DNA from: Paracoccaceae bacterium
Lineage (GTDB): Bacteria; Pseudomonadota; Alphaproteobacteria; Rhodobacterales; Rhodobacteraceae
NCBI GenBank assembly: GCA_014872815.1
Contig: WKFK01000008.1
Span: 178,534-242,533, forward strand
DNA length: 64,000 bases
Direction: 5' to 3'
Shown here one piece after another: positions 52,094 through 63,796 of this stretch. The notes beneath the pieces were generated by a model, which saw only the letters and a list, made by a program, of their open reading frames with translations, searched no databases and had not been told where the DNA came from. A program made the translations under genes and the position numbers. Each line of letters begins with the position of its first letter. Position 1 is the stretch's first letter.

Positions 52094-52207
52094 ATGCATA
52101 AACGTGTTCTGATGTTTGCGACCCTGACCCTTTTGGCGGTGTCGACCATGGCGGCCACTGGTTCTGCGCACAGGGGTTTCTCGGTGTCAGATCACTTCGA
52201 TTTCTGA
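52094..52207 (+). CDS. Small (37 aa) signal-peptide-like ORF
   Basis: MHKRVLMFATLTLLAVSTMAATGSAHRGFSVSDHFDF with upstream AAAGGA. Confidence 0.4.
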   Translation: MHKRVLMFATLTLLAVSTMAATGSAHRGFSVSDHFDF

Positions 52208-52245
52208 GGCTGGCCCCGCGGAAGAGCTGGCGCTTAAGGCGTTGA

Positions 52246-53010
52246 CTACTCCGGGTCCAGGCCTGCTGAAAGCGTTTGCAGCGGTGTGAAACTCATGTGA
52301 CCAACGTAGGCTGTGGCTGAGGCGCCATCCGGTGCCAGACCCGCCCAATTCTGCACGCTTTTATCGGCGGCCCAGAGGTTTGCGAACAAATAGCCGGGCT
52401 CTTTGGGGAGCGTGGTCTCGTCTTCGGTGATCTCAAACACGAGCTTCCCGTCGGCATACCAGCGCAGTCGATCCGGGTGCCAGTCAAAAGCGTAGGCGCG
52501 AGGACGGTCCGCCGCGTCAAACCCCAAGGGGATCTGGCGGCTCTGCAGCACGCCATCCACAAACCAGGCCACCTGCATGCGGGTTGTGTCCTGGCCCAGA
52601 AATTCGATGTCTATTTCGTCATGCTGCGTGCCATAGTGCGGACCGGTATAGGTGAAGAACCCGGTGATAATCCCGGGGCCCTTGGCAGGGTGGAGCAAGG
52701 CTTCGTAGCGGCCATAATGGCTCTGGGTGTCGCGGCGCACAGAGGCGCCGACAAAGCGGTTCTCGGCACCGGTTTGCGGGGTAAGAGAGAGGTGCAGCCC
52801 TTGCTCAAATTTGAGGTTGGCGCGGCTCCAATCCGTATCGAACGCCGGATGGCTGAAGCGATAGTTGGCAATGTGCCACCCTTGGTCGGGGGCGGTTAGG
52901 AATTGCTCCGAATATCCGTGAATTTGGTTAGACATCACCGGTGCGGCTGTGAACATCGCCAGAGCGAGTCCCAAACGCCAAACGCGATTGGGTAAGTGTA
53001 AACGTCCCAT
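52246..53010 (-). CDS. Glycoside hydrolase family 16 (beta-glucanase/ExoK-like)
   Basis: Signal peptide; catalytic HDEIDIEFLGQDTTRMQ (ExDxxE). Confidence 0.92.
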   Translation of the reverse strand: MGRLHLPNRVWRLGLALAMFTAAPVMSNQIHGYSEQFLTAPDQGWHIANYRFSHPAFDTDWSRANLKFEQGLHLSLTPQTGAENRFVGASVRRDTQSHYGRYEALLHPAKGPGIITGFFTYTGPHYGTQHDEIDIEFLGQDTTRMQVAWFVDGVLQSRQIPLGFDAADRPRAYAFDWHPDRLRWYADGKLVFEITEDETTLPKEPGYLFANLWAADKSVQNWAGLAPDGASATAYVGHMSFTPLQTLSAGLDPE

Positions 53011-53152
53011 CAGGCCCCCACCCGATTAAGGTTAATGGCGGTCTGCCATACCTCTGTGAACTACCAATGAGGGTAGGAGAGCAAGACTAATTTGGGAAGT
53101 TGGTTAATGCGGTGACTTGGTTAATAAGTGCGCGACCGCAGGTGCACACATC

Positions 53153-53686
53153 CTAGGGTGGACAGGTCTTTGCCTGAATTTCCACACGTCGGTTCAGTGG
53201 CGAGGTGCTGGGAATACCTTGTAGAGGGGCGGCTTCGCCCTCTGACAGCACGTCGCGCAGCCGTGTTGGGTCCTTTAACCCGCTGCGCAGGGCGTTGGCT
53301 ACGGTGTCAGCCCGTTCGCGGGCCAGGGCTTTGTTGGCGGCGTCCCCGCCGCTGCTGTCGGAGTGACCGATCAGCCGCAAGCAGGCGTTTTGCATGACGG
53401 TGGTGTCCAAAACCGTCAGGAGCACTGCAATTTGCACTTGTGCGTCATCATTAAGGTCCGCCCCGCCTTGAGGAAAGAAGATATGGCTTTCGAGCATTTC
53501 CTCAGACAGGCCTGTGGTGGTCTTTGGCGGGGGGGCGGAGGGCATGACGCAGCGCTCTGGGGTCACGCCGTAGACCTCCTGTGCCCGGGCACAGAGCGCT
53601 GTGTCATCCAACGCCATAGCACCGGAAGGGGGCGACAGGATCAGACCGAGGATCAGAAGGGGGAAAGACCGGTTCACAACACTCAT
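53153..53686 (-). CDS. OmpA-family (OmpA C-terminal-like) protein
   Basis: LRLIGHSDSSGGDAANKALARERADTVANAL...NRRVEI. Confidence 0.85.
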   Translation of the reverse strand: MSVVNRSFPLLILGLILSPPSGAMALDDTALCARAQEVYGVTPERCVMPSAPPPKTTTGLSEEMLESHIFFPQGGADLNDDAQVQIAVLLTVLDTTVMQNACLRLIGHSDSSGGDAANKALARERADTVANALRSGLKDPTRLRDVLSEGEAAPLQGIPSTSPLNRRVEIQAKTCPP

Positions 53687-53774
53687 AACAACACTCCTTA
53701 CTGGGACAGGTTACCGCCAAATCTTTGCCAAGTGATGAATAAAAGGGGAACAAAGTAAAAACAAAGAGACAATT

Positions 53775-53789
53775 GTTCATTATTTGTTC
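53775..53789 (+). promoter_or_regulatory. Candidate alphaproteobacterial LexA box GTTC-N7-GTTC
   Basis: GTTC ATTATTT GTTC in the divergent ompA/acyltransferase promoter region. Confidence 0.35.
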
Positions 53790-53828
53790 ATGTTCGGGTG
53801 CGACGCTAGAGGCACTGAGTGTTTGGTA

Positions 53829-54980
53829 ATGGTGAACTGCATGGTTGCAGATGGTCCAGAAGCGGGGCGACATGCCTGGATTGACGCGTTGCGGTTGTGC
53901 GCAGGCGTTTCCATGGTTGGATTGCATGTGACAGCGGATGCCCATGGGCAACCGTTTCCCGACGCGGACCCGGCGGCGCGCTTGGCGCCAATGTTGCTGC
54001 GCGCGCTGCTGTATACGGCCCGTACGGAACTGTTCCTGATGATCTCAGTGATGTTGCTGCTGATTGCGTTGGCGCGGCGGCCGCGGGGCTACGGCACAGT
54101 GATGGCGCAACAAGCGCGGCGGCTTTTGATCCCGTTTGTGTTTTGGACGCTGTTTTATGCGCTGTTTAACCTGCTAAAGTCCGCGGCTTTTGGCTACCAA
54201 GCGCATGTTTGGGCTGCGCTGGGGCAGCCGGGCACCTGGGCAGGGTATCTCCTGCTGGGCGATGTGAAATACCACATGCATTTTATTCCGACCCTGTTTG
54301 CGTTGCTGCTGTTTTTTCCTTTGTTCCAAGTGGCAGAGCGGCATCCGGTGTTAGGAGGCGCGGTGCTTGTTGGGTTGATTGCTAAACAATGGCTGGACCC
54401 GATGGTTTATGCCGCATTCTGGGGAACGGAGGCGCTTGGCTACGTTGTGCGCGGCGTCAAAGTTCTTAGCTATTTAGGCTATGGGTTGGCCGCAGGATCC
54501 GTGGTGGGGATTTGGCGCCAGACCACCTCTGCACAGCGTGCGAGGTGGTTTGGCCCAATTGGGGTCGCTGTTTGCGTGTTGTTTGCGCTGAAACTGAAGG
54601 TGACTGGCCAAGTTGTGGCGCAAGGCCAATGGATTTTTGATGATCCCCTTGGCTATTGGGCAGATTATCTGATGCCGCTCTCGCTTTTGCTTTTGGCCCT
54701 GTGTCTGGCGCAAAAAGCCTGGCCAAGCTGGGTTTCAGATGCCGCCAAATACGCCTTCGGCCTGTATCTCTGTCATCCCATCTTTCTCGATATTGCAGAG
54801 ATGTTTTTGGCAGAGCGTGCTTTGACGCCAAGCCAGTCTGTGGTTGCCGAGCTGGGCTGGACCTTACCCACAACGGTCCTGTTTGTCTGGGGGCTAAGCC
54901 GCAGCAGTTTGACAGCGTGGATGGTCGGGTTGGGCCCGCTGCCACGCGCTGGATGGCAGCGCCATCCTCAAAACATATGA
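53829..54980 (+). CDS. Acyltransferase 3 family membrane protein
   Basis: RHAWIDALRLCAGVSMVGLHV start and multiple TM segments; start codon uncertain (53784/53829/53841). Confidence 0.85.
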   Translation: MVNCMVADGPEAGRHAWIDALRLCAGVSMVGLHVTADAHGQPFPDADPAARLAPMLLRALLYTARTELFLMISVMLLLIALARRPRGYGTVMAQQARRLLIPFVFWTLFYALFNLLKSAAFGYQAHVWAALGQPGTWAGYLLLGDVKYHMHFIPTLFALLLFFPLFQVAERHPVLGGAVLVGLIAKQWLDPMVYAAFWGTEALGYVVRGVKVLSYLGYGLAAGSVVGIWRQTTSAQRARWFGPIGVAVCVLFALKLKVTGQVVAQGQWIFDDPLGYWADYLMPLSLLLLALCLAQKAWPSWVSDAAKYAFGLYLCHPIFLDIAEMFLAERALTPSQSVVAELGWTLPTTVLFVWGLSRSSLTAWMVGLGPLPRAGWQRHPQNI

Positions 54981-56515
54981 GTCCGTTTCAGTTCAAGGAG
55001 ACCACGATGCTTACGCAGTCCGAAGATGTTGGTATGATTTCCATTCTTAAGATCGCAACTGCTTGTCTGACGTCGGCGGATTACGCAGATTTGCAGGCGG
55101 CGCAAGCCCGATGCCTTGAGCGCGGACGATCCGCAATGCTCGTGGATTTGAGCGCTGTGCGTCGTATGTCGCGCTCTGGCTTGGCGGCTTTGGTAGAGTT
55201 CCAAAGTGAGGCACCCGCAGAGATGGCTGTCGGTTTTTGGGGGGCATCGGAGCGGGTCAAACACCATATCGCGCAGTGCCCTTTGGCCGGATTGCTTACG
55301 CTCTTTGCGACCCGCGAGGCCGCGCTTGCGGCCCCCAGGTTTCGGCAACGTCAGCTGGCAGGAGTCAAGGCGGTGCTGTTGGTGGCAGGCACGGGGTCTC
55401 GGATGGGGCCACTGAGTCAGGATACGCCCAAACCATTGCTTGATTTCCTGGGGCGACCGGTGATTGACCACGTCATGCGCCATTTGAGTGGGTTTGGCAT
55501 TCGCGACTTTATTCTAAACCCCGGGCATCTTGCGCCGCAGTTTCACGCCCAAATTCAAACTTCGGCCCTGCGCAGTGTGCAGTTTTCAAACGAAGGCCAC
55601 TGGCTAGGGGGGCAGTGGATTGCGCAACCGATAGGGTCAGCGTCCACGTTGCGGCAGCTGCAGATCGGTGGCAGTGCCTTTGATCAGGACTTTCTGGTGC
55701 TCTGTGGGGATGCGGTGACCAATATTGATGTGGCGGACCTTTTGGCGCGGCATCAAGCACGCGGGGCAGATGTGACCATCGCGGCGCAGAAGGTCCCACG
55801 CGATCAGGTGCAAAAATATGGGATAATTGATGCTGATCGTACCGGTCGAGTGCGACGGTTTGTGGAAAAACCGGCTCCAGACGCGGCCCCGTCCCGGTTG
55901 GCAAGTACTGGAATCTATGCGATTTCTCCCCGCGCATTGGATTACATCCCTGTCGCACCAGATCAGGACATTGCCGTACATTTGCTGCCCGCTCTGTTGC
56001 GCGCCGGACGGTCTCTACACGTCTATGAAAGGCCATTTAGTTGGGTCGACATTGGATGCGGGCGCGACTATTTCGCTGGCCTGTCAAAGGGATTGCGGGG
56101 GCTTATTCCTGCGTTGGTGCCGCAGGCGCGTGAAATCCGCCGCCATGTTTGGGCTGCTGATGGGGCTCAAGTCTCCCCGCGTGCGGTGATCGTTGGACCG
56201 GCTTTTATTGGTCCGGAAGCCATCATTGAGGCGGGCGCAAAATTGGACGGACCGGTTGTGGTGGGCGCGCGTGCGCGCATTTGCACACGCAGTCTTGTGC
56301 GGCGCTCAGTGATTTGTCCCGAGACACGGGTCGCGTCGGGCACGTGGGTGGACGATATGATTGTGGCACCAGACTGGGCGTTTGATCATCGATTGGCGAT
56401 CGCAGCGCCGCAGTCAACATGCCCCATGGAAGGGGTCGATCGGGCACCTCTGCGTCCAGAGGCGTCGCTGTTATGTGAACGCGCGCCAAAGCCAGTGCAG
56501 TGGGGGCGCGCGTGA
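54977..56515 (+). CDS. STAS-domain / nucleotidyltransferase / left-handed-beta-helix fusion protein
   Basis: N-terminal STAS-like region (LVDLSAVRRMSRSGLAALVEF); then VKAVLLVAGTGSRMGPLSQDTPKPLLDFLGRPVIDH; C-terminal hexapeptide-like repeats. Confidence 0.8.
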   Translation: MSPFQFKETTMLTQSEDVGMISILKIATACLTSADYADLQAAQARCLERGRSAMLVDLSAVRRMSRSGLAALVEFQSEAPAEMAVGFWGASERVKHHIAQCPLAGLLTLFATREAALAAPRFRQRQLAGVKAVLLVAGTGSRMGPLSQDTPKPLLDFLGRPVIDHVMRHLSGFGIRDFILNPGHLAPQFHAQIQTSALRSVQFSNEGHWLGGQWIAQPIGSASTLRQLQIGGSAFDQDFLVLCGDAVTNIDVADLLARHQARGADVTIAAQKVPRDQVQKYGIIDADRTGRVRRFVEKPAPDAAPSRLASTGIYAISPRALDYIPVAPDQDIAVHLLPALLRAGRSLHVYERPFSWVDIGCGRDYFAGLSKGLRGLIPALVPQAREIRRHVWAADGAQVSPRAVIVGPAFIGPEAIIEAGAKLDGPVVVGARARICTRSLVRRSVICPETRVASGTWVDDMIVAPDWAFDHRLAIAAPQSTCPMEGVDRAPLRPEASLLCERAPKPVQWGRA

Positions 56516-57360
56516 TGGTGTATCCGGTATGGGGACCGTGGACCACAAGGTTTGCTGTGGGGCTGCGCACCGGAATTAGGGTGCTGACCCTATGGGGAGC
56601 CACAGTGTTTGCTGTATCGCTCCCTGCATTGGGGCAGGCAAATACAACGGGCTCAATGGTGCCAGCGCAAGATCGCTTTTGGATTCTGTGGGAAAAGGTA
56701 AGTTTTGTTGGGCACCATTGCCCAGGTGGCCCGCAGTGTCAGGAAAAACGCCAATATGCCAGTCGACCTTTGGACACAGACAACACAGGATTTATCTACC
56801 GCCTGTTTGGTCTGCGAGATGGTGCGCAACGCGGAGCCCCTTGGCCACAGGACCATCCCGACGCTCCGGTGATTTGTCAAAGAAACCAAGCTGCGCTCAG
56901 CCTGGGCTTTGATCCAGCTGCCTTGCCGCGGTCAGAAAAGGGCGAGGTTCTCAGAGGGATCGACAAGCTGTACCTTGATCTTACAACGCTCAAAGCGCCA
57001 CCTGGATTTTCTGACACGTTTGGCGCGGGCCTGCAGGCTGAATTTGTTTCCCGACTGAAGGCGGCCGGAATACAGGTGGTGCCCAAAGAGGCTTTGCATT
57101 TGGTGGCCGGGCAGCCGACACTGAACGTGTATTTCTCTTTTACCGACCCGGATGAACTGTGCACCTACAGCTATTCTGTATTTGCCAGCCTGTCTCAGGA
57201 AGTTTTGCTGTCACGTGACCTGCGTATCAAGGTCGTCGCCGGGGTGTGGTCTTACTCAACAGGGTCGACGGCAAAGGATCATGTCGGGGATGAAACTCAA
57301 GCAATTTTGCGCGTTGTGGACGCCTTTGTGCGCGATCATCAGTATGTGAATGCGCGCTAA
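56515..57360 (+). CDS. Hypothetical exported protein in EPS-type operon
   Basis: TGATG coupling to the upstream gene; hydrophobic N-terminus; no family recognised. Confidence 0.65.
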   Translation: MVYPVWGPWTTRFAVGLRTGIRVLTLWGATVFAVSLPALGQANTTGSMVPAQDRFWILWEKVSFVGHHCPGGPQCQEKRQYASRPLDTDNTGFIYRLFGLRDGAQRGAPWPQDHPDAPVICQRNQAALSLGFDPAALPRSEKGEVLRGIDKLYLDLTTLKAPPGFSDTFGAGLQAEFVSRLKAAGIQVVPKEALHLVAGQPTLNVYFSFTDPDELCTYSYSVFASLSQEVLLSRDLRIKVVAGVWSYSTGSTAKDHVGDETQAILRVVDAFVRDHQYVNAR

Positions 57361-57389
57361 GTTACAGATTTTGTGGAGTTATCCTGCCG

Positions 57390-59252
57390 ATGACAAAGCC
57401 GTATTTTGAGGCATTTACAGATCGAAAGCCGCCTTTTTTTGCACCGCTCAGCCCTGGCCGCCGCATGGCCTGGCATTTTTTGGCCGGAAGCAGCGTCGCC
57501 GCCGCGACATCGTATTTGTACTGGCGCTGGACGCAGGCCCTAAATCCCGAAGCCTGGATGTTTTCTGTGGTTGTCGCCTTAGCGGAAACTCTGTTTTTTC
57601 TGGGCAGTCTGCTGTTTTATTTTGACATTTGGGACGAAGGAGACACGCAGCCCGGAACTGTGTCCGATGTGACCGACACCTTGGCGGTATCGGGGGATCA
57701 CGTGACGGTGGACGTATTGATCACCACCTGTGATGAACCCTTGGACGTTGTCAGGCCGTCTTTGGAGGCGGCTGCCGCAGTAGATGTGCCCCAAAATGTC
57801 CGGTTGAGACTTTATCTATTGGATGATGGCAACCGGCCAGACATGGCAAAAGAGGCCGCGCAACGCGGCATCGGGTATTTCGCGCGCCAGGATAACGCTG
57901 GCTTTAAGGCGGGAAATCTTCGGCATGCGTTGTTGCGGACCTCTGGCGACTTTTTTGTCATTTGCGATGCGGATACGCGGCTTTTGCCAACGTTTTTAGA
58001 GCACACGTTGGGATATTTTGCCGATCCGAAAGTGGCTTGGGTGCAAACACCGCATTGGTTTTATGATCTGCCAGAAGGGGAAACATGGGCGCAGTGGCTG
58101 CGGCGAAAGCTCGGGTGGCTTTTGGGGGGGAGTGTTTCGAAAAGCTCCAGAGGGTTGAAACTGGGCGCTCAGATGTTGTCTTGGATCAGTGGCAGGTCGC
58201 ATGTCGGGCACGACCCATTTAAGAGCGACCCCAGCATTTTCTTTGATGTGATTCAGCGACGACGCAATCGGCATAACGCGTCTTTTTGCTGTGGGGCGGC
58301 CTCTATTCATCGGCGCGAAGCTGTGTTTGCGGCCGCGATTGCCAAGAAAGCCAAGGACGTGGACAAACTCGCGGCGCAGAGCGGCCTGTCTGCGGCGCAG
58401 TGCGCGGCCACGCTCCCGCTTCAACCTTACCGGTTTCATGTGTCTGAGGACTTGTATACGTCCATTTTGATGCATGAGGATGGCTCTGCCGGGTGGCGGT
58501 CCGTGTATCACCCTCAGGTTGAGGCCAAAATGCTGTCGCCGTGGAGTTTGTCTGCCTGGGCCGCGCAAAGGCTGAAGTATGCCGGGGGCACGTTTGACAT
58601 TGCGGTTTGGGACAATCCCCTTTGGCGATCCGGTCTCAGCTGGCGGCAAAAGCTGCATTATGGGGCCACATTCTGGTCCTATCTCAGCGGGCTTTGGGCG
58701 CCGGTGTTGCTGTTGGCTCCGGTGGTGTCGTTGGTGACGGGCTTGGCCCCGGTTGCGGCATACTCCGGTGAGTTTTTTCAGAGATTTTTGCCGGCGGTTG
58801 TGCTGAGTGAGTTGGCTGTCATGGTGGCTTGCAAGGGGTATGGCGTTTCGGCGGGGCGCATCCTGGCGGTGTTGGGATTGCCGATACAGATGCGGGCGCT
58901 CTATTGCGTGTTGCGTCGGCGCAAGCCGCACTTTGCCCCAACCCCCAAACTGCCCGGACAGCAGCAAGAAAGTGCGCTACGCTATATTTTGCCTCATGTT
59001 GTGATGATGTCTGCCATGACAGGCGCTGCCGGTTTTGGGATTTGGCACACGGCCATTGGGACGCCGGGATTTAGCGCGGCGTTGCTTTGGGTCAATCTGT
59101 TTTGGCTGTTTGTAAATATGACGATTTTGATGCGTGCGGTTCAGATGGCACGATGGAGCCCGCCCGCGCAACCGGCGGATTTGGCGCCGCAAAACACTGT
59201 TTCTTATTCACCCTTGGAGGTCGGGCATGTTTCAAAGAACCAACCAGTCTGA
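57390..59252 (+). CDS. Glycosyltransferase family 2, cellulose-synthase-like
   Basis: YLLDDGNRPD, CDADTRLLPTFLEHTLGYF, FHVSEDLYTSILMHEDG, AAQRLKYAGG; C-terminal TM block. Confidence 0.92.
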   Translation: MTKPYFEAFTDRKPPFFAPLSPGRRMAWHFLAGSSVAAATSYLYWRWTQALNPEAWMFSVVVALAETLFFLGSLLFYFDIWDEGDTQPGTVSDVTDTLAVSGDHVTVDVLITTCDEPLDVVRPSLEAAAAVDVPQNVRLRLYLLDDGNRPDMAKEAAQRGIGYFARQDNAGFKAGNLRHALLRTSGDFFVICDADTRLLPTFLEHTLGYFADPKVAWVQTPHWFYDLPEGETWAQWLRRKLGWLLGGSVSKSSRGLKLGAQMLSWISGRSHVGHDPFKSDPSIFFDVIQRRRNRHNASFCCGAASIHRREAVFAAAIAKKAKDVDKLAAQSGLSAAQCAATLPLQPYRFHVSEDLYTSILMHEDGSAGWRSVYHPQVEAKMLSPWSLSAWAAQRLKYAGGTFDIAVWDNPLWRSGLSWRQKLHYGATFWSYLSGLWAPVLLLAPVVSLVTGLAPVAAYSGEFFQRFLPAVVLSELAVMVACKGYGVSAGRILAVLGLPIQMRALYCVLRRRKPHFAPTPKLPGQQQESALRYILPHVVMMSAMTGAAGFGIWHTAIGTPGFSAALLWVNLFWLFVNMTILMRAVQMARWSPPAQPADLAPQNTVSYSPLEVGHVSKNQPV

Positions 59253-60549
59253 GCGGTTTGGCGGATCCAATCGCGGCAGTTTTGCGTTTCTGGCGGGGCT
59301 GGTGGTGACCGCCTCGATTGCGGTCTCCCAGGACGATTGGGGGCGGTTCATGCAGGACACGAGTCTGGCAAAGCTGCCCCAGAATGCCGCGCGCACGCCT
59401 GTGACGGCGCGCGATCTGTCCGCAAAAGAATGGGAAGCGGCGGCCACGGCTTGGGCCTATTTTGATGCTCATTTTCGCGCAGGCACAGGGTTTGTGGACG
59501 CGATACACGACCACCCAAATGCAACGCTGTGGGATCAGGGGAGCTACGTCTTGGCTTTGGTGGCGGCCCATGGATTGGGTGTGATTGATGACGCCACTCT
59601 GGCGTATCGCAGTGAAGCGTTCTTGCAAGGGTTGGAGCGCCTGCCGTTGTTTGAAGATACCTTGCCGAACAAAGCCTATGATACGCGGGATCTGCGTATG
59701 GTGGATTATGCCAATGTGCCGGCGCCGGACGGGATAGGGTGGTCCGCGTTGGACGTGGCCAGGTTGTTGATGGCGCTTCGGGTTTTGGAAGTGCAGCACC
59801 CGCAATATGGCGCGCAGATCCGAAGCATTATCGCCAGGTGGGACCTGTCGGCCATGGCGGTGGAGGGGCGTCTTTGGGGAACGAGCCGTGCGAACGGACA
59901 CACGCGCTATCATCAGGAAGGGCGCATCGGTTATGAGCAGTACGGGGCGCGGGCTGCGGCCCTTTGGGGATTGGACGTGCTTGCTGCGAGCACTGCGCAG
60001 CCGATTATGGAGTGGCAGCGCATTTCCGGTGTCGAGGTGGCCGTGGATCGCCGGCGTGCCAAGGATTTTGGCGCGATCACACCAGTGGTCAGTGAACCGT
60101 ATCTTTTGCAAGCCTTTGAAATGGGGTTGAATGCCGAGGGGCGTCTGTTGGCGGATCGACTGTACCAAGCGCAGGAGGCGCGGGCCCGCGACAGTGGCGT
60201 GGCCACAATTGTCAGCGAGGATCACATCGATCAAGCGCCGCATTTTTTGTACAACGCAGTCTTTGGCAATGGCGTGGATTGGGCGGTTGTCTCAGAAGAT
60301 GGTGATTTGCATCCTGAGCTGCGCACGGTCAGTTTGAAAGCGTCATTTGGTTGGGATGCGCTTTATGATACGGATTATACCGATGAGGTGTTGGAAGGGT
60401 TGCAAGACGCGGCGAGTCCTCATGGGTGGTACGCTGGACGATATGAGGTCGATGGACGCATCAACGCCGCACTGACGCTCAATACAAACGCGGTTGTTTT
60501 GGAGGCCCTCTACTACAAGTCAAAGGGGCCTTTGCTTCAAATTTGGTGA
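59227..60549 (+). CDS. DUF3131-domain protein (putative glycoside-hydrolase-like)
   Basis: WAYFDAHFRAGTGFVDAIHDHPNATLWDQGSYVLALVAAHGLGVID; start overlaps the GT2 3' end. Confidence 0.85.
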   Translation: MFQRTNQSERFGGSNRGSFAFLAGLVVTASIAVSQDDWGRFMQDTSLAKLPQNAARTPVTARDLSAKEWEAAATAWAYFDAHFRAGTGFVDAIHDHPNATLWDQGSYVLALVAAHGLGVIDDATLAYRSEAFLQGLERLPLFEDTLPNKAYDTRDLRMVDYANVPAPDGIGWSALDVARLLMALRVLEVQHPQYGAQIRSIIARWDLSAMAVEGRLWGTSRANGHTRYHQEGRIGYEQYGARAAALWGLDVLAASTAQPIMEWQRISGVEVAVDRRRAKDFGAITPVVSEPYLLQAFEMGLNAEGRLLADRLYQAQEARARDSGVATIVSEDHIDQAPHFLYNAVFGNGVDWAVVSEDGDLHPELRTVSLKASFGWDALYDTDYTDEVLEGLQDAASPHGWYAGRYEVDGRINAALTLNTNAVVLEALYYKSKGPLLQIW

Positions 60550-60590
60550 CCCCGCGCGCATCCGCCGCGCGCCCAGATCAGACAAGCCAA

Positions 60591-60626
60591 ACGCGGCCCC
60601 AGCGTTCTGCGGGGCCGCGTTTTTTG
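60591..60626. terminator. Bidirectional terminator between convergent EPS genes
   Basis: ACGCGGCCCC-agcgttctgc-GGGGCCGCGTTTTTT. Confidence 0.9.
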
Positions 60627-60663
60627 GTTTGTTGTCTTTTGACAGGGCCCTCAATGCGCCAGA

Positions 60664-61842
60664 TCAAAATGATTGCATCAAATGCCTGCTGGCCCCGTGT
60701 AAGAGATCGGTCAGTTTCTGCGGCGACATCGTAACCTGCATGGTCGAACGGGTGCCATTGGGCATGGAATGGAGGGCGGCCATGACCTTAGGGGGTGGGG
60801 TGAGGCGCACCGTCACTTTCGTTTGGGGGGCGGATGTGTCACCTGCCGACTGGATCGCTTGAATATGTGCATCAATACGATTGTTGGGATAGGGCAATCC
60901 TGTCAGGACAACCTGCAGCGTTTCCCCCCTCTGCAAATGCACAGCGTCCAGAGAAGACACAAGAAATTCGGCTTGGAAGGTCTTCTGTTGGTCCGTTTGG
61001 ATTTGCGCAATTGTGACCGGCATGCCGCGCGCCATGTTTTGAGGGGCTTGGCGTAATCGGGCCAGCTGTCCCTTGACAGGGGCTTCAAGCCAGGGGCGCA
61101 CTGTCCGGTCTTCAAGCGCTGTTTTCTGGTTCTCCAGAGCGGCGATCTCATCCTTTAGGCGCGTTGTGTGTTGCAAGTGCCCTTCTCTATGCGTGGTCAT
61201 GAGCTGTGCCAGTTCAAACTCTACCTCCCGAACGACGCTGTTTAAGGTCTCTCTTTCCAGCGCGGCGCGTAAAAGCAGGATGCGTCGAACGGCGTGTGGC
61301 GTGTTTTCGGCCCGCGACACGAGTTCGTGCACCGCCAAGGCTGTCTCTCGCTTCAGACTGGTCCGCCGCATCATCAACTGTTCTTGTGCCAGACGCTCCT
61401 GCTGTTTTGTCAACTGGCAGGTTTGTACTTGAGACGGCACCGGAGGGGCAGTGGCCGCGTTCACTAAGACATCGGCATCGGTTTTGGACCAGCACTCCAA
61501 CGCACTTTCTCGCGCGGAGATTTCCGAGCGGATGTGTTGAAGGTGGCGGTGGAGGGCAACTTGATCAAAGAGGATCACCCTTTGACCTTTCTCTACCGTG
61601 TCGCCATCCTCAACCAAAATTTCAGACACCTTGAGGCCCGAGGGGACAACCAAGTCCACAGTTGGAGTTTGCGCTTCAAAGCTTCCGGTGACGGTGCGTT
61701 CTGGCAGAACAGCGATCTGGCCGGCCAGTCCCAAGGCGCTGATGACAAGTAGGCTGCTGGCGAAAATCGCCCAAAGCAACCAGATCCCTTGCGGCGCAAT
61801 GCGTTGGCGTGTTGGCGGTAAATCAAGTCTTGGACGGTGCAT
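60664..61842 (-). CDS. HlyD-like membrane fusion / biotinyl-lipoyl domain protein
   Basis: One TM segment; VPSGLKVSEILVEDGDTVEKGQRVILFD; long coiled coil; APVKGQLARLR. Confidence 0.85.
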   Translation of the reverse strand: MHRPRLDLPPTRQRIAPQGIWLLWAIFASSLLVISALGLAGQIAVLPERTVTGSFEAQTPTVDLVVPSGLKVSEILVEDGDTVEKGQRVILFDQVALHRHLQHIRSEISARESALECWSKTDADVLVNAATAPPVPSQVQTCQLTKQQERLAQEQLMMRRTSLKRETALAVHELVSRAENTPHAVRRILLLRAALERETLNSVVREVEFELAQLMTTHREGHLQHTTRLKDEIAALENQKTALEDRTVRPWLEAPVKGQLARLRQAPQNMARGMPVTIAQIQTDQQKTFQAEFLVSSLDAVHLQRGETLQVVLTGLPYPNNRIDAHIQAIQSAGDTSAPQTKVTVRLTPPPKVMAALHSMPNGTRSTMQVTMSPQKLTDLLHGASRHLMQSF

Positions 61843-63796
61843 CGGCGGGTCCTTTGCGGGTCTCAAGCAGGCGTGGATCGTAGGTTTTTACGCAGATTTG
61901 CAAATAGCCAAGGTTGTCTTCTTGGCCCGTGTTCACCGACAGGCAGTCTCGCATAAGTTTCGCCAGTGGCGACAGGCGTTCGCCTTCGACAGAGGTGTCC
62001 GCCGCGACTCTTGCTTTCTGCATGGCGCCACTAGACAAGGCGAGCTGAGGATCAATGAGGCGGAGGTGACATTCGCCAACGAAGTGTTTGAACTCAAAGG
62101 AGAGATTATCCGTAACTGCGTTCTCGCCGAGGGCTGCCTGGCAGGCGACCGCAAGAAGCTCATTGGCCGCCATACAGACAGCACGCCGGTTGCCTTCGTC
62201 GCCTTCTCTGCGAAACTGGCTACAGATCCACGCATCCAGAGCCTCTTCGTTGTCCAGGTCCCGAGTGGTGACAAAGCGGCTCCAGCCGGATGAAAGCCGT
62301 GCGCGGATTTCTGCGGTGGGTGCGTATTCTATCACACGCCCATTCTGCATCATCAAAAGCCGATCACAGCGTTCCAACAAAGCCCGATTTTCGGTGACCA
62401 AAAGGGTCGTATGCCCAAGGCGCGTTTCTGCGCGCAACTGATCGCTAAGGGCCGCCAAAAGGCTCTCGCTGGCCCCATCTTCGGGCCGGTCGATCAGCAA
62501 CAGACTGGGGCGCAGAGCCAGAGCTCGCGCAAACGAGAGCGCCTTTTGCTCTGTTCTTGAAAGCGTACGCACATCCGTACAAGTCAGGATACGGGACACG
62601 GTATCGGCCGTGAACACCAAGGATTGTAGGACCTTGCGTGCGCGTTGCAGCTGCTCTGGTCCAGAGAAGCAGCACAGGTTTTCTGGTCCGCCGCCGGGCA
62701 CGGTTATTGGGTGAGACGGAACAAGCACGCTGCGCATTGCTTGTTCCTCAGCAGACCGTCCCCAAAGCGGGTCACCCCGCAGAGAGACATAGCCCTCAAC
62801 GCGTAAGTCGGTCAGGTCATGGGGCGCCTGTATGGCGCGCAACAACAAGGATTTCCCGGCAAAGCTGTCGCCGGTCACGCCGATGATTTCGCCAGCCTCC
62901 GCCCGGAAAGAAAGATTGGACACAAGAGGCTGGCCGTCGGAGGTGTGAATGGAGAGGTGAGACACAACTAAGGCCGTGTCATCGCTCTCAGGATCCAGGG
63001 AGAGCACCGGTGGAAGGGGGGTCACCGCCTCAGCCAGAGCGCTTTGTTCCGGATCCAGTTTGGTTGTCTGTCTGAAATAGCAGAAAAAAGCATCAACAGA
63101 CCAATAGGTGATCAAGGCAATGGTGGCGATTGCAGCGACGTTTAAAACATCCTGAGCGACAAGCCAGCTTGCCGCGGCAACCGCGGCGATCAACCCGCCC
63201 AAAGAGAGGATTTTGTGCATGGCGTCCAGCAGGGCGCTGTCGCCGCGCGCTGCATTGGCCAGCGTCACAGCCCGTTGATCTCTTCCGGACAGAAAGCTGG
63301 CCGCTTCCTTGGGGAGGAAATCCCACATAGGTTCTTTGCGGGTCCAGCGCGCAGCAAGTTGGCAACAGACCCAGCTCAGGACCGCCCCTAGCACAAATGG
63401 CACCGACAAAAGCGGGTGCAAGACACCAAATACGCCCCCCGCCAAAACCGCGACAAGGGCCTGTCCCCCTGCGGCATTGCGTATACGTATGTAACGATAT
63501 CCAGCGAGGGCGCGGGCGTGGCCAACCTCAAAAATCAGCATGCCAAGCAGCGGCACCAATGCGCCCAAAGCCAGAAGAGGCGCCAGGATCAGTTGGCGTT
63601 CCTGCGCAACCATTTCATACATGAAGGTCACAAAAACTGCGACAGCCAAAAGGCAAATACCGCCGCCGAGCGAAAAAAGAAACGAGAGACCGCGCGTCCA
63701 CGTTGGCACTGTGCGATCTTGAAATATCAGTGGCCCAGTGTGAGCCGGTGCCAAGGATGGAACGGACAGATCGGGCAACGAGCGATTGTCGGACAT
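61823..63796 (-). CDS. ABC-type transporter protein with degenerate NBD and extra C-terminal domain
   Basis: N-terminal TM block; Walker A GDSFAGKS; LSRTEQ instead of LSGGQ; LLLIDRPEDG Walker B with Glu replaced; overlaps the HlyD gene by 20 nt. Confidence 0.8.
   Translation of the reverse strand: MSDNRSLPDLSVPSLAPAHTGPLIFQDRTVPTWTRGLSFLFSLGGGICLLAVAVFVTFMYEMVAQERQLILAPLLALGALVPLLGMLIFEVGHARALAGYRYIRIRNAAGGQALVAVLAGGVFGVLHPLLSVPFVLGAVLSWVCCQLAARWTRKEPMWDFLPKEAASFLSGRDQRAVTLANAARGDSALLDAMHKILSLGGLIAAVAAASWLVAQDVLNVAAIATIALITYWSVDAFFCYFRQTTKLDPEQSALAEAVTPLPPVLSLDPESDDTALVVSHLSIHTSDGQPLVSNLSFRAEAGEIIGVTGDSFAGKSLLLRAIQAPHDLTDLRVEGYVSLRGDPLWGRSAEEQAMRSVLVPSHPITVPGGGPENLCCFSGPEQLQRARKVLQSLVFTADTVSRILTCTDVRTLSRTEQKALSFARALALRPSLLLIDRPEDGASESLLAALSDQLRAETRLGHTTLLVTENRALLERCDRLLMMQNGRVIEYAPTAEIRARLSSGWSRFVTTRDLDNEEALDAWICSQFRREGDEGNRRAVCMAANELLAVACQAALGENAVTDNLSFEFKHFVGECHLRLIDPQLALSSGAMQKARVAADTSVEGERLSPLAKLMRDCLSVNTGQEDNLGYLQICVKTYDPRLLETRKGPADAPSKT

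Follow-up and report, generated by a model that had tools for sequence, protein, structure and literature searches.

A 64,000-nucleotide stretch of a Paracoccaceae genome (contig WKFK01000008.1, positions 178,534 to 242,533; the window hereafter) carries a gene cluster built around a glycosyltransferase family 2 (GT2) synthase and a DUF3131 protein. We favour, with somewhat better than even confidence, the reading that this cluster is the form which a widespread and uncharacterised polysaccharide system of the synthase-dependent type takes in Rhodobacterales. Its core would be a GT2 with a QxxKY motif together with membrane-anchored DUF3131 proteins, and its regulator would consist of fused parts that cannot be phosphorylated. 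The product is most probably a glucan, extracellular or periplasmic, that the locus both makes and processes; the chemistry of the polymer and the action of the regulator are inferred. The source genome measures 3.96 Mb, the window lies on its contig C9, and its nearest relatives belong to Shimia.

A scan of GTDB genomes returned 58 loci, and their gene content was determined by tblastn and clustering of open reading frames in a neighbourhood of about 10 kb per locus. The Rhodobacterales loci kept the arrangement OmpA-like protein, acyltransferase, STAS-nucleotidyltransferase (STAS-NTase) fusion, (exported protein), GT2 and DUF3131. Genes for GH16, the ABC protein, the HlyD-like protein, a second DUF3131 protein and a 529-aa protein were found nearby in these loci, with varying order and orientation. 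Presence and absence were then scored in 60 relative genomes with four separate queries (GT2, DUF3131, ABC and STAS-NTase). The GT2 was detected in 13 of the 60. DUF3131 occurred in the same 13 genomes at two copies each, with two further remnants elsewhere; the ABC protein was present in 12 of the 13 and STAS-NTase in the same 12. The exception, genome G031, carries its GT2 with a SpoIIE/STAS/ATPase cassette in place of ABC and STAS-NTase. In genome G016 the module of ABC and second DUF3131 lies about 710 kb from the GT2 operon, and both were retained. Within the genus the cluster was patchy (11/25 genomes, counting the source genome), a pattern suggesting that it is gained or lost as a whole.

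Recurrence in many Rhodobacterales genera and near-identical presence and absence place this gene grouping far beyond chance. The cluster is conserved and common to other Rhodobacterales, and is no oddity of Shimia. A preliminary description of the locus had proposed that it may be a distinct synthase-dependent glucan or other exopolysaccharide system; a distinct polysaccharide locus of this type is supported, and the neighbourhood comparison found its genes conserved together across Rhodobacterales. A DUF3131 fragment with an internal TGA was also noted in a Shimia-group genome without the GT2 (G008:C19:49176-49490); it is likely a remnant of cluster loss.

Judged by its sequence, the GT2 keeps the catalytic residues of a processive synthase and has a changed motif at the acceptor site. 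DxD and SED were conserved in all 58 aligned GT2 proteins, and all 58 carried Q-x-x-K-Y in place of QxxRW. QxxRW was present in the BcsA and BgsA sequences fetched for comparison. The signature of D, DxD, (T)ED and QxxRW has been described previously, with QxxRW called fully conserved in bacterial beta-glucan synthases and the Trp reported to stack on the acceptor glucose in cellulose synthase (PMC6821405). Because this Trp belongs to a motif that here reads KY, QxxKY may alter the acceptor geometry of the GT2. At the column of the first signature Asp (TTxDE, D115), 11 sequences had Ser and 6 had Asn, and the next Glu was invariant; the number of sequences with Ser equals the number carrying the Microvirga-type ATYSED motif.

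In a PMSF tree the GT2 subfamily split from BcsA/BgsA at 100/100, and the loci bearing STAS-NTase formed one group at 100/98. BcsA was the nearest relative with a solved structure. The GT2 matched OpgH at 22% over 143 aa (E 0.007). As the preliminary description had reported for the window, neither BcsB nor PilZ was recovered: BcsB (PF03170) was absent from the whole genome, and Pfam found no PilZ in the GT2.

Fold and profile comparisons indicate that the DUF3131 protein is related to the beta-1,2-glucan enzymes GH189 and GH144 (the beta-1,2-glucanase/cyclic-glucan-synthase superfamily), a kinship not foreseen in the preliminary description. In its AlphaFold2 model (pLDDT 92.9, pTM 0.88) a barrel of the (alpha/alpha)6 type, predicted to be periplasmic, is joined to a single N-terminal helix that we interpret as anchoring the protein in the membrane. 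The best Foldseek match was the GH144-type structure 4qt9 (E 3e-10, TM-score 0.61/0.64); the cyclization domain of a cyclic glucan synthase (CGS), 8wy1, and 8rf0 matched as well. At the level of sequence, a DUF3131 profile matched 8wy1 (E 3.8e-6) and NdvB (0.003) in the PDB, where a single-sequence search gave no match, and hhalign against another cyclic-glucan synthase domain gave 94% over 83 columns. In G039 a Pfam match to DUF3131 adjoins a PF10091 match within one 2991-residue open frame. The near-invariant residues E231, E237 (GYEQY) and E331 (VSEDH) are candidate catalytic residues. The general acid Glu is E1356 in TiCGS and E211 in CpSGL (PMC10834661, PMC12102758); GH189 catalytic residues could not be mapped onto DUF3131 by sequence, since the alignment reached the N-terminal part only.

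The fused STAS domain has lost its phosphorylation site. Ser was found at this position in 0/37 homologues and Thr in 1/37, and the preceding Asp was kept in 1/37; the cassette STAS proteins of related loci read D-S-S-G in all seven compared. With a comparison set drawn from 21 genomes, a fused-STAS profile scored all 8 tested cassette STAS at 45.6-68.3 bits versus at most 44.2 for other STAS proteins of the relatives. By this measure no other STAS in the comparison is as close to the fused STAS as the cassette STAS are. The nucleotidyltransferase signature was intact in the window protein and 23 other homologues and lost in 14/38. The gene was kept in those 14, which means that its conserved function is not catalytic in every lineage.

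The ABC protein was most similar in fold to PrtD (5l22, E 5e-17), and Foldseek with the whole model gave ABC exporters alone among the matches listed. Walker A Lys and Walker B Asp were each invariant in 26/26 homologues. The catalytic Glu position was Arg, Gln or Met in 26/26, the H-loop His was absent in 26/26 and LSGGQ was broken; on account of this pattern the protein probably binds but does not hydrolyse nucleotide. The degeneracy remarked on in the preliminary description is thus real and conserved across the 26 homologues. The C-terminal 140 residues showed the predicted order b-a-a-b-b-a-a-b-b, which we take to be that of SpoIIAB/RsbW. When compared with cassette ATPases by hhalign, this domain gave 60.7% over 124 columns with a score of 32.8; the controls scored lower, with maxima of 19.1 among 49 decoy families and 17.6 among 60 shuffles, and reversed controls also fell well below. 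The 60.7% was obtained with the more diverse ATPase set, and a narrow Microvirga set gave a weak 10.6%. Within the N-box (E-x3-N in RsbW-type kinases), Glu was kept in 25/26 and the Asn position was L, V, F, I or Y in 26/26. With moderate, not firm, confidence we regard the C-terminus as a degenerate RsbW domain.

To place these domains, relatives of the GT2 are informative. In Paracoccus, SC52, Pantoea, Microvirga, Nitrospirillum and G031 the GT2 is accompanied by SpoIIE, a free STAS and an RsbW-type ATPase. No free-cassette locus contained the STAS-NTase fusion or this ABC protein, the weak matches there coming from the free STAS or from ABC ATPases of the usual kind, and no STAS-NTase locus contained the cassette. 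SpoIIE was a single-copy gene on another contig of the source genome and was found in none of the STAS-NTase loci. With the phospho-site missing from the STAS and the N-box Asn missing from the ATPase-like domain, ordinary phospho-switching is unlikely. Our preferred reading of the regulator is a partner switch that could once be phosphorylated, was captured into fusions and may now act as a non-phosphorylated lock or scaffold. This direction of change rests on the lost phospho-site and active residues, as the GT2 tree alone gives no root. The built-in regulatory domains proposed in the preliminary description are present as a STAS and a putative RsbW-like domain, without the phospho-site and N-box Asn. 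An unlinked STAS and RsbW-type ATPase pair was seen elsewhere in the genome (G000:C14:159366-160108) and is possibly a general partner switch.

Free-cassette clusters with GT2 and DUF3131 occur on Paracoccus seriniphilus p420573, in Rhodobacteraceae SC52, on Pantoea stewartii pDSJ10 and in Nitrospirillum; Microvirga has the cassette without a nearby DUF3131, none being found by tblastn near its GT2. These clusters share with the window the QxxKY GT2, between one and three DUF3131 proteins, in many cases an acyltransferase, and a STAS/anti-sigma-type module. They carry a free phosphorylatable STAS, RsbW kinase and SpoIIE, whereas the window has STAS-NTase without the phospho-site and the degenerate ABC/HlyD pair. 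'Block 3b' of Klebsiella pneumoniae, with a cellulose synthase, three DUF3131, OpgC, and an anti-sigma factor with its antagonist, resembles the free-cassette clusters as judged by its description in PMC12974863 only. The Microvirga GT2 loci (L081 6591-9788, 14492-16486; L072:17704-18363) also contain a divergent TPR/PgaA-BcsC-like outer-membrane protein, SpoIIE and GH10; this TPR protein would represent an outer-membrane exit route that was not recognised in the Shimia locus. GT2 relatives with three DUF3131 places were found on the gammaproteobacterial plasmids CP074295.1, CP053577.1 (Salmonella enterica) and pDSJ10.

In the mechanism we propose, the GT2 would polymerise and extrude a beta-glucan-type chain, which the DUF3131 proteins would cut or transglycosylate on the periplasmic side, the acyltransferase would decorate and GH16 would trim. 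The free switch would have been replaced by two fusions, one of STAS with a sugar-nucleotidyltransferase and the other of an RsbW-like pseudokinase with the PrtD-type ABC protein that has HlyD as its partner. Control would most likely be exerted by a protein-protein lock, with the STAS fusion docked either to the synthase or to the scaffold formed by pseudokinase/ABC and HlyD. Such a lock would gate synthesis through nucleotide binding or envelope state and not through serine phosphorylation.

Several results weigh against this interpretation. Many Rhodobacterales GT2 loci had no ABC or HlyD gene within the 10 kb searched, and the pair may therefore be a separate module. The ATPase-like domain of the ABC protein emerged only when profiles were compared with each other and from the predicted topology: Pfam gave no ATPase-like call for the C-terminus of any ABC homologue, a sequence profile of this region had no match in the PDB, and single cassette ATPases aligned poorly with it. 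The mutual exclusion of fused and free versions is entangled with phylogeny: a single switch accounts for it, and it counts as one evolutionary event. The sequence alignment of DUF3131 with GH189 spans the first third of the protein only, and the kinship in fold with GH189/GH144 leaves the linkage unfixed. The families GH16, and GH10 in Microvirga, act on beta-1,3/1,4 polymers and are not known to act on beta-1,2. The DUF3131 fold points towards a beta-1,2 linkage and GH16 towards beta-1,3/1,4, and the data favour neither. A more specific version, in which a dead partner switch controls a QxxKY GT2 that makes, with DUF3131, a beta-1,2-linked and possibly cyclic or branched glucan, is for these authors a tentative and rather doubtful proposal.

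Known glucan systems offer other explanations. A cellulose-like or curdlan-like exopolysaccharide, with DUF3131 standing in for BcsZ and with ABC/HlyD as unrelated neighbours, appears unlikely. It would fit the relationship of the GT2 to BcsA, the weak appearance of BcsZ (GH8; 7f81, E 1e-3) in the DUF3131 fold search, and an ABC gene that is unlinked in G016 and missing near the GT2 in many loci. The window shares with Bcs cellulose operons a GT2 core and a periplasmic glycosidase with an (alpha/alpha)6 barrel, yet it has no BcsB or PilZ, and DUF3131, much nearer to GH144/GH189 than to GH8, stands in place of the latter; the ABC protein was also kept even where unlinked. Bcs membership was rejected on the invariant QxxKY and the absence of BcsB. 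Quite unlikely, in our view, is a STAS-NTase fusion that serves as an ordinary pyrophosphorylase supplying GDP- or UDP-sugar precursors and whose STAS is decorative, accompanied by type I secretion of a protein such as GH16 or an adhesin through ABC/HlyD. The intact signature of the window nucleotidyltransferase, its best NCBIfam profile (mannose-1-phosphate guanylyltransferase), and the PrtD-like exporter fold with an adjacent HlyD_3 protein are all consistent with it. Against it stand the homologues that kept the gene after losing this signature, and an ATPase site unlike that of a working exporter.

The least likely of these explanations is a mixed-linkage (1,3;1,4) beta-glucan system of the BgsAB type, with the GT2 as BgsA, HlyD as BgsB and GH16 as lichenase. 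The GT2 fold and CelA-like profile, a BglS/ExoK-like GH16 with intact motif and the HlyD-like protein in the cluster are in its favour, as is the partner-switch regulation reported for the Sinorhizobium meliloti mixed-linkage glucan (Baena et al. 2019), as far as its citation as ref. 32 in PMC8546604 indicates. At only 27%, the identity of the GT2 to BgsA did not exceed that to BcsA, and the protein fell in another clade, with QxxKY and not QxxRW. Synthases of the BgsAB system have a C-terminal domain that binds c-di-GMP; in the GT2, Pfam gave no PilZ match. HlyD had no BLAST similarity to BgsB (best E 1.9); it lies outside the GT2 operon on the opposite strand, paired with the degenerate ABC protein, and was not found near many related GT2 genes. 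No DUF3131, ABC or STAS gene is annotated alongside S. meliloti bgsBA. On the bgsBA neighbourhood, the HlyD search, and GT2 identity and phylogeny, BgsAB membership was rejected. Of the S. meliloti parallel drawn in the preliminary description, the idea of partner switching survives in the relatives with SpoIIE/STAS/ATPase; homology of the parts, with the GT2 as BgsA counterpart and HlyD as a BgsB-like partner, does not.

OpgGHC is alike in theme, with a GT2, a periplasmic enzyme active on beta-1,2-glucan and an acyltransferase. The GT2 of the window is however barely similar to OpgH, its acyltransferase (53784..54980) showed no BLAST similarity to Escherichia coli OpgC, and no OpgG-type protein was among the Pfam matches; kinship with OpgH/OpgC was rejected for want of useful similarity. 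With the GH189/GH144-type enzymes of clan GH-S (PMC12102758), DUF3131 has the (alpha/alpha)6 barrel in common and, over its first third, also resembles them in sequence. In contrast to cyclic-glucan synthases, it is a stand-alone protein predicted to be anchored by a single transmembrane helix beside a separate GT2, has no fused glycosyltransferase or phosphorylase parts, and its catalytic residues are putative.

Features of the cluster in window numbering, with the gene that runs past the window edge and the one that follows it
Feature	Coordinates	Strand	Support
Exported GH16 glucanase, BglS/ExoK-like, EIDIE motif intact	52246..53010	-	Pfam Glyco_hydro_16 2e-31
OmpA-like envelope protein, divergent from synthase operon	53153..53686	-	Pfam OmpA 3e-8
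Acyltransferase-3 membrane protein, gene 1 of synthase operon	53784..54980	+	Pfam Acyl_transf_3 2e-29
STAS-nucleotidyltransferase-LbH fusion	54977..56515	+	Pfam STAS 1.4e-6, NTP_transferase 2e-34
Exported protein, no family; start GTG 56500 or ATG 56515	56500..57360	+	Homologues in 17 Rhodobacterales loci
GT2 processive synthase, QxxKY subfamily, without PilZ	57390..59252	+	Pfam/NCBIfam CelA-like
DUF3131 protein, one N-terminal transmembrane helix and periplasmic (alpha/alpha)6 barrel (predicted)	59227..60549	+	Pfam DUF3131 2e-125
HlyD-like membrane-fusion protein, overlaps ABC gene	60664..61866	-	Pfam HlyD_3 1.1e-5
PrtD-like ABC protein, inactive ATPase site, putative C-terminal RsbW-like (HATPase_c_2-like) pseudokinase domain at residues ~500-640	61823..63796	-	
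Second DUF3131 gene, 565 aa	63968-65665 (L002:13968-15665)	+	Pfam DUF3131 4e-119
529-aa gene without family	65665-67254, beyond window		Open reading frame

The ten open reading frames named in the preliminary description were all recovered with their domains, and its overlapping starts were verified, with ATG at 54977, 56515, 59227 and 61842. Pfam calls in the window comprised GH16, OmpA, acyltransferase-3, NTP_transferase, an N-terminal STAS, weak LbH repeats, GT2, DUF3131, HlyD_3 and ABC_tran. The nearest NCBIfam families were CelA for the GT2, BglS/ExoK for GH16 (BglS 178 bits against a cut-off of 300) and mannose-1-phosphate guanylyltransferase for the nucleotidyltransferase, all below curated cut-offs; PADLOC returned nothing but a weak ABC-related match.

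GH16 was found in 19 Rhodobacterales loci in the family table, and EIDIE was present in 18/19 of the GH16 homologues of related loci. HlyD-like homologues occurred in 20 loci. The OmpA-like gene held the same divergent position beside the acyltransferase in most Rhodobacterales loci, and an acyltransferase adjoined the GT2 in Paracoccus and SC52 too. Past the window edge the cluster runs on for ~3.3 kb with the second DUF3131 gene, which lies beside the ABC gene in most loci, and the gene for the 529-aa protein, which matched family f17 only; modABC-like genes follow. Neither Pfam nor NCBIfam matched the exported protein. A relationship of this protein to the CsgG-like family f10 was considered and no link was found. 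Family f10, a lipoprotein with a peptidoglycan-binding domain (L024:14986-16212; CsgG-like by Pfam in L040), lies beside the cluster in 16 Rhodobacterales loci and is not in the window's own locus. A Peptidase_C14 caspase-fold protein (family f16, e.g. L062:12670-13431) was located near a second OmpA/GH16 in ten Rhodobacterales loci.

The clusters of GT2 and DUF3131 are found in both alpha- and gammaproteobacteria, among them records from K. pneumoniae, Salmonella and Pantoea. Their QxxKY subfamily is a natural variant of a motif held to define processive beta-glucan synthases. DUF3131 is rarely treated in the open-licence literature searched, with one passing mention in PMC12974863; its tie to the beta-1,2-glucanase/cyclic-glucan-synthase superfamily gives this uncharacterised family a direct biochemical test. 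Replacement of a phospho-switch by fused, apparently inactive relatives would offer a traceable example of how a signalling module became a seeming structural lock. If the reading of a dead switch controlling a beta-1,2-glucan synthase is true, the locus would make such glucans by a route that differs from those of CGS and OpgGH.

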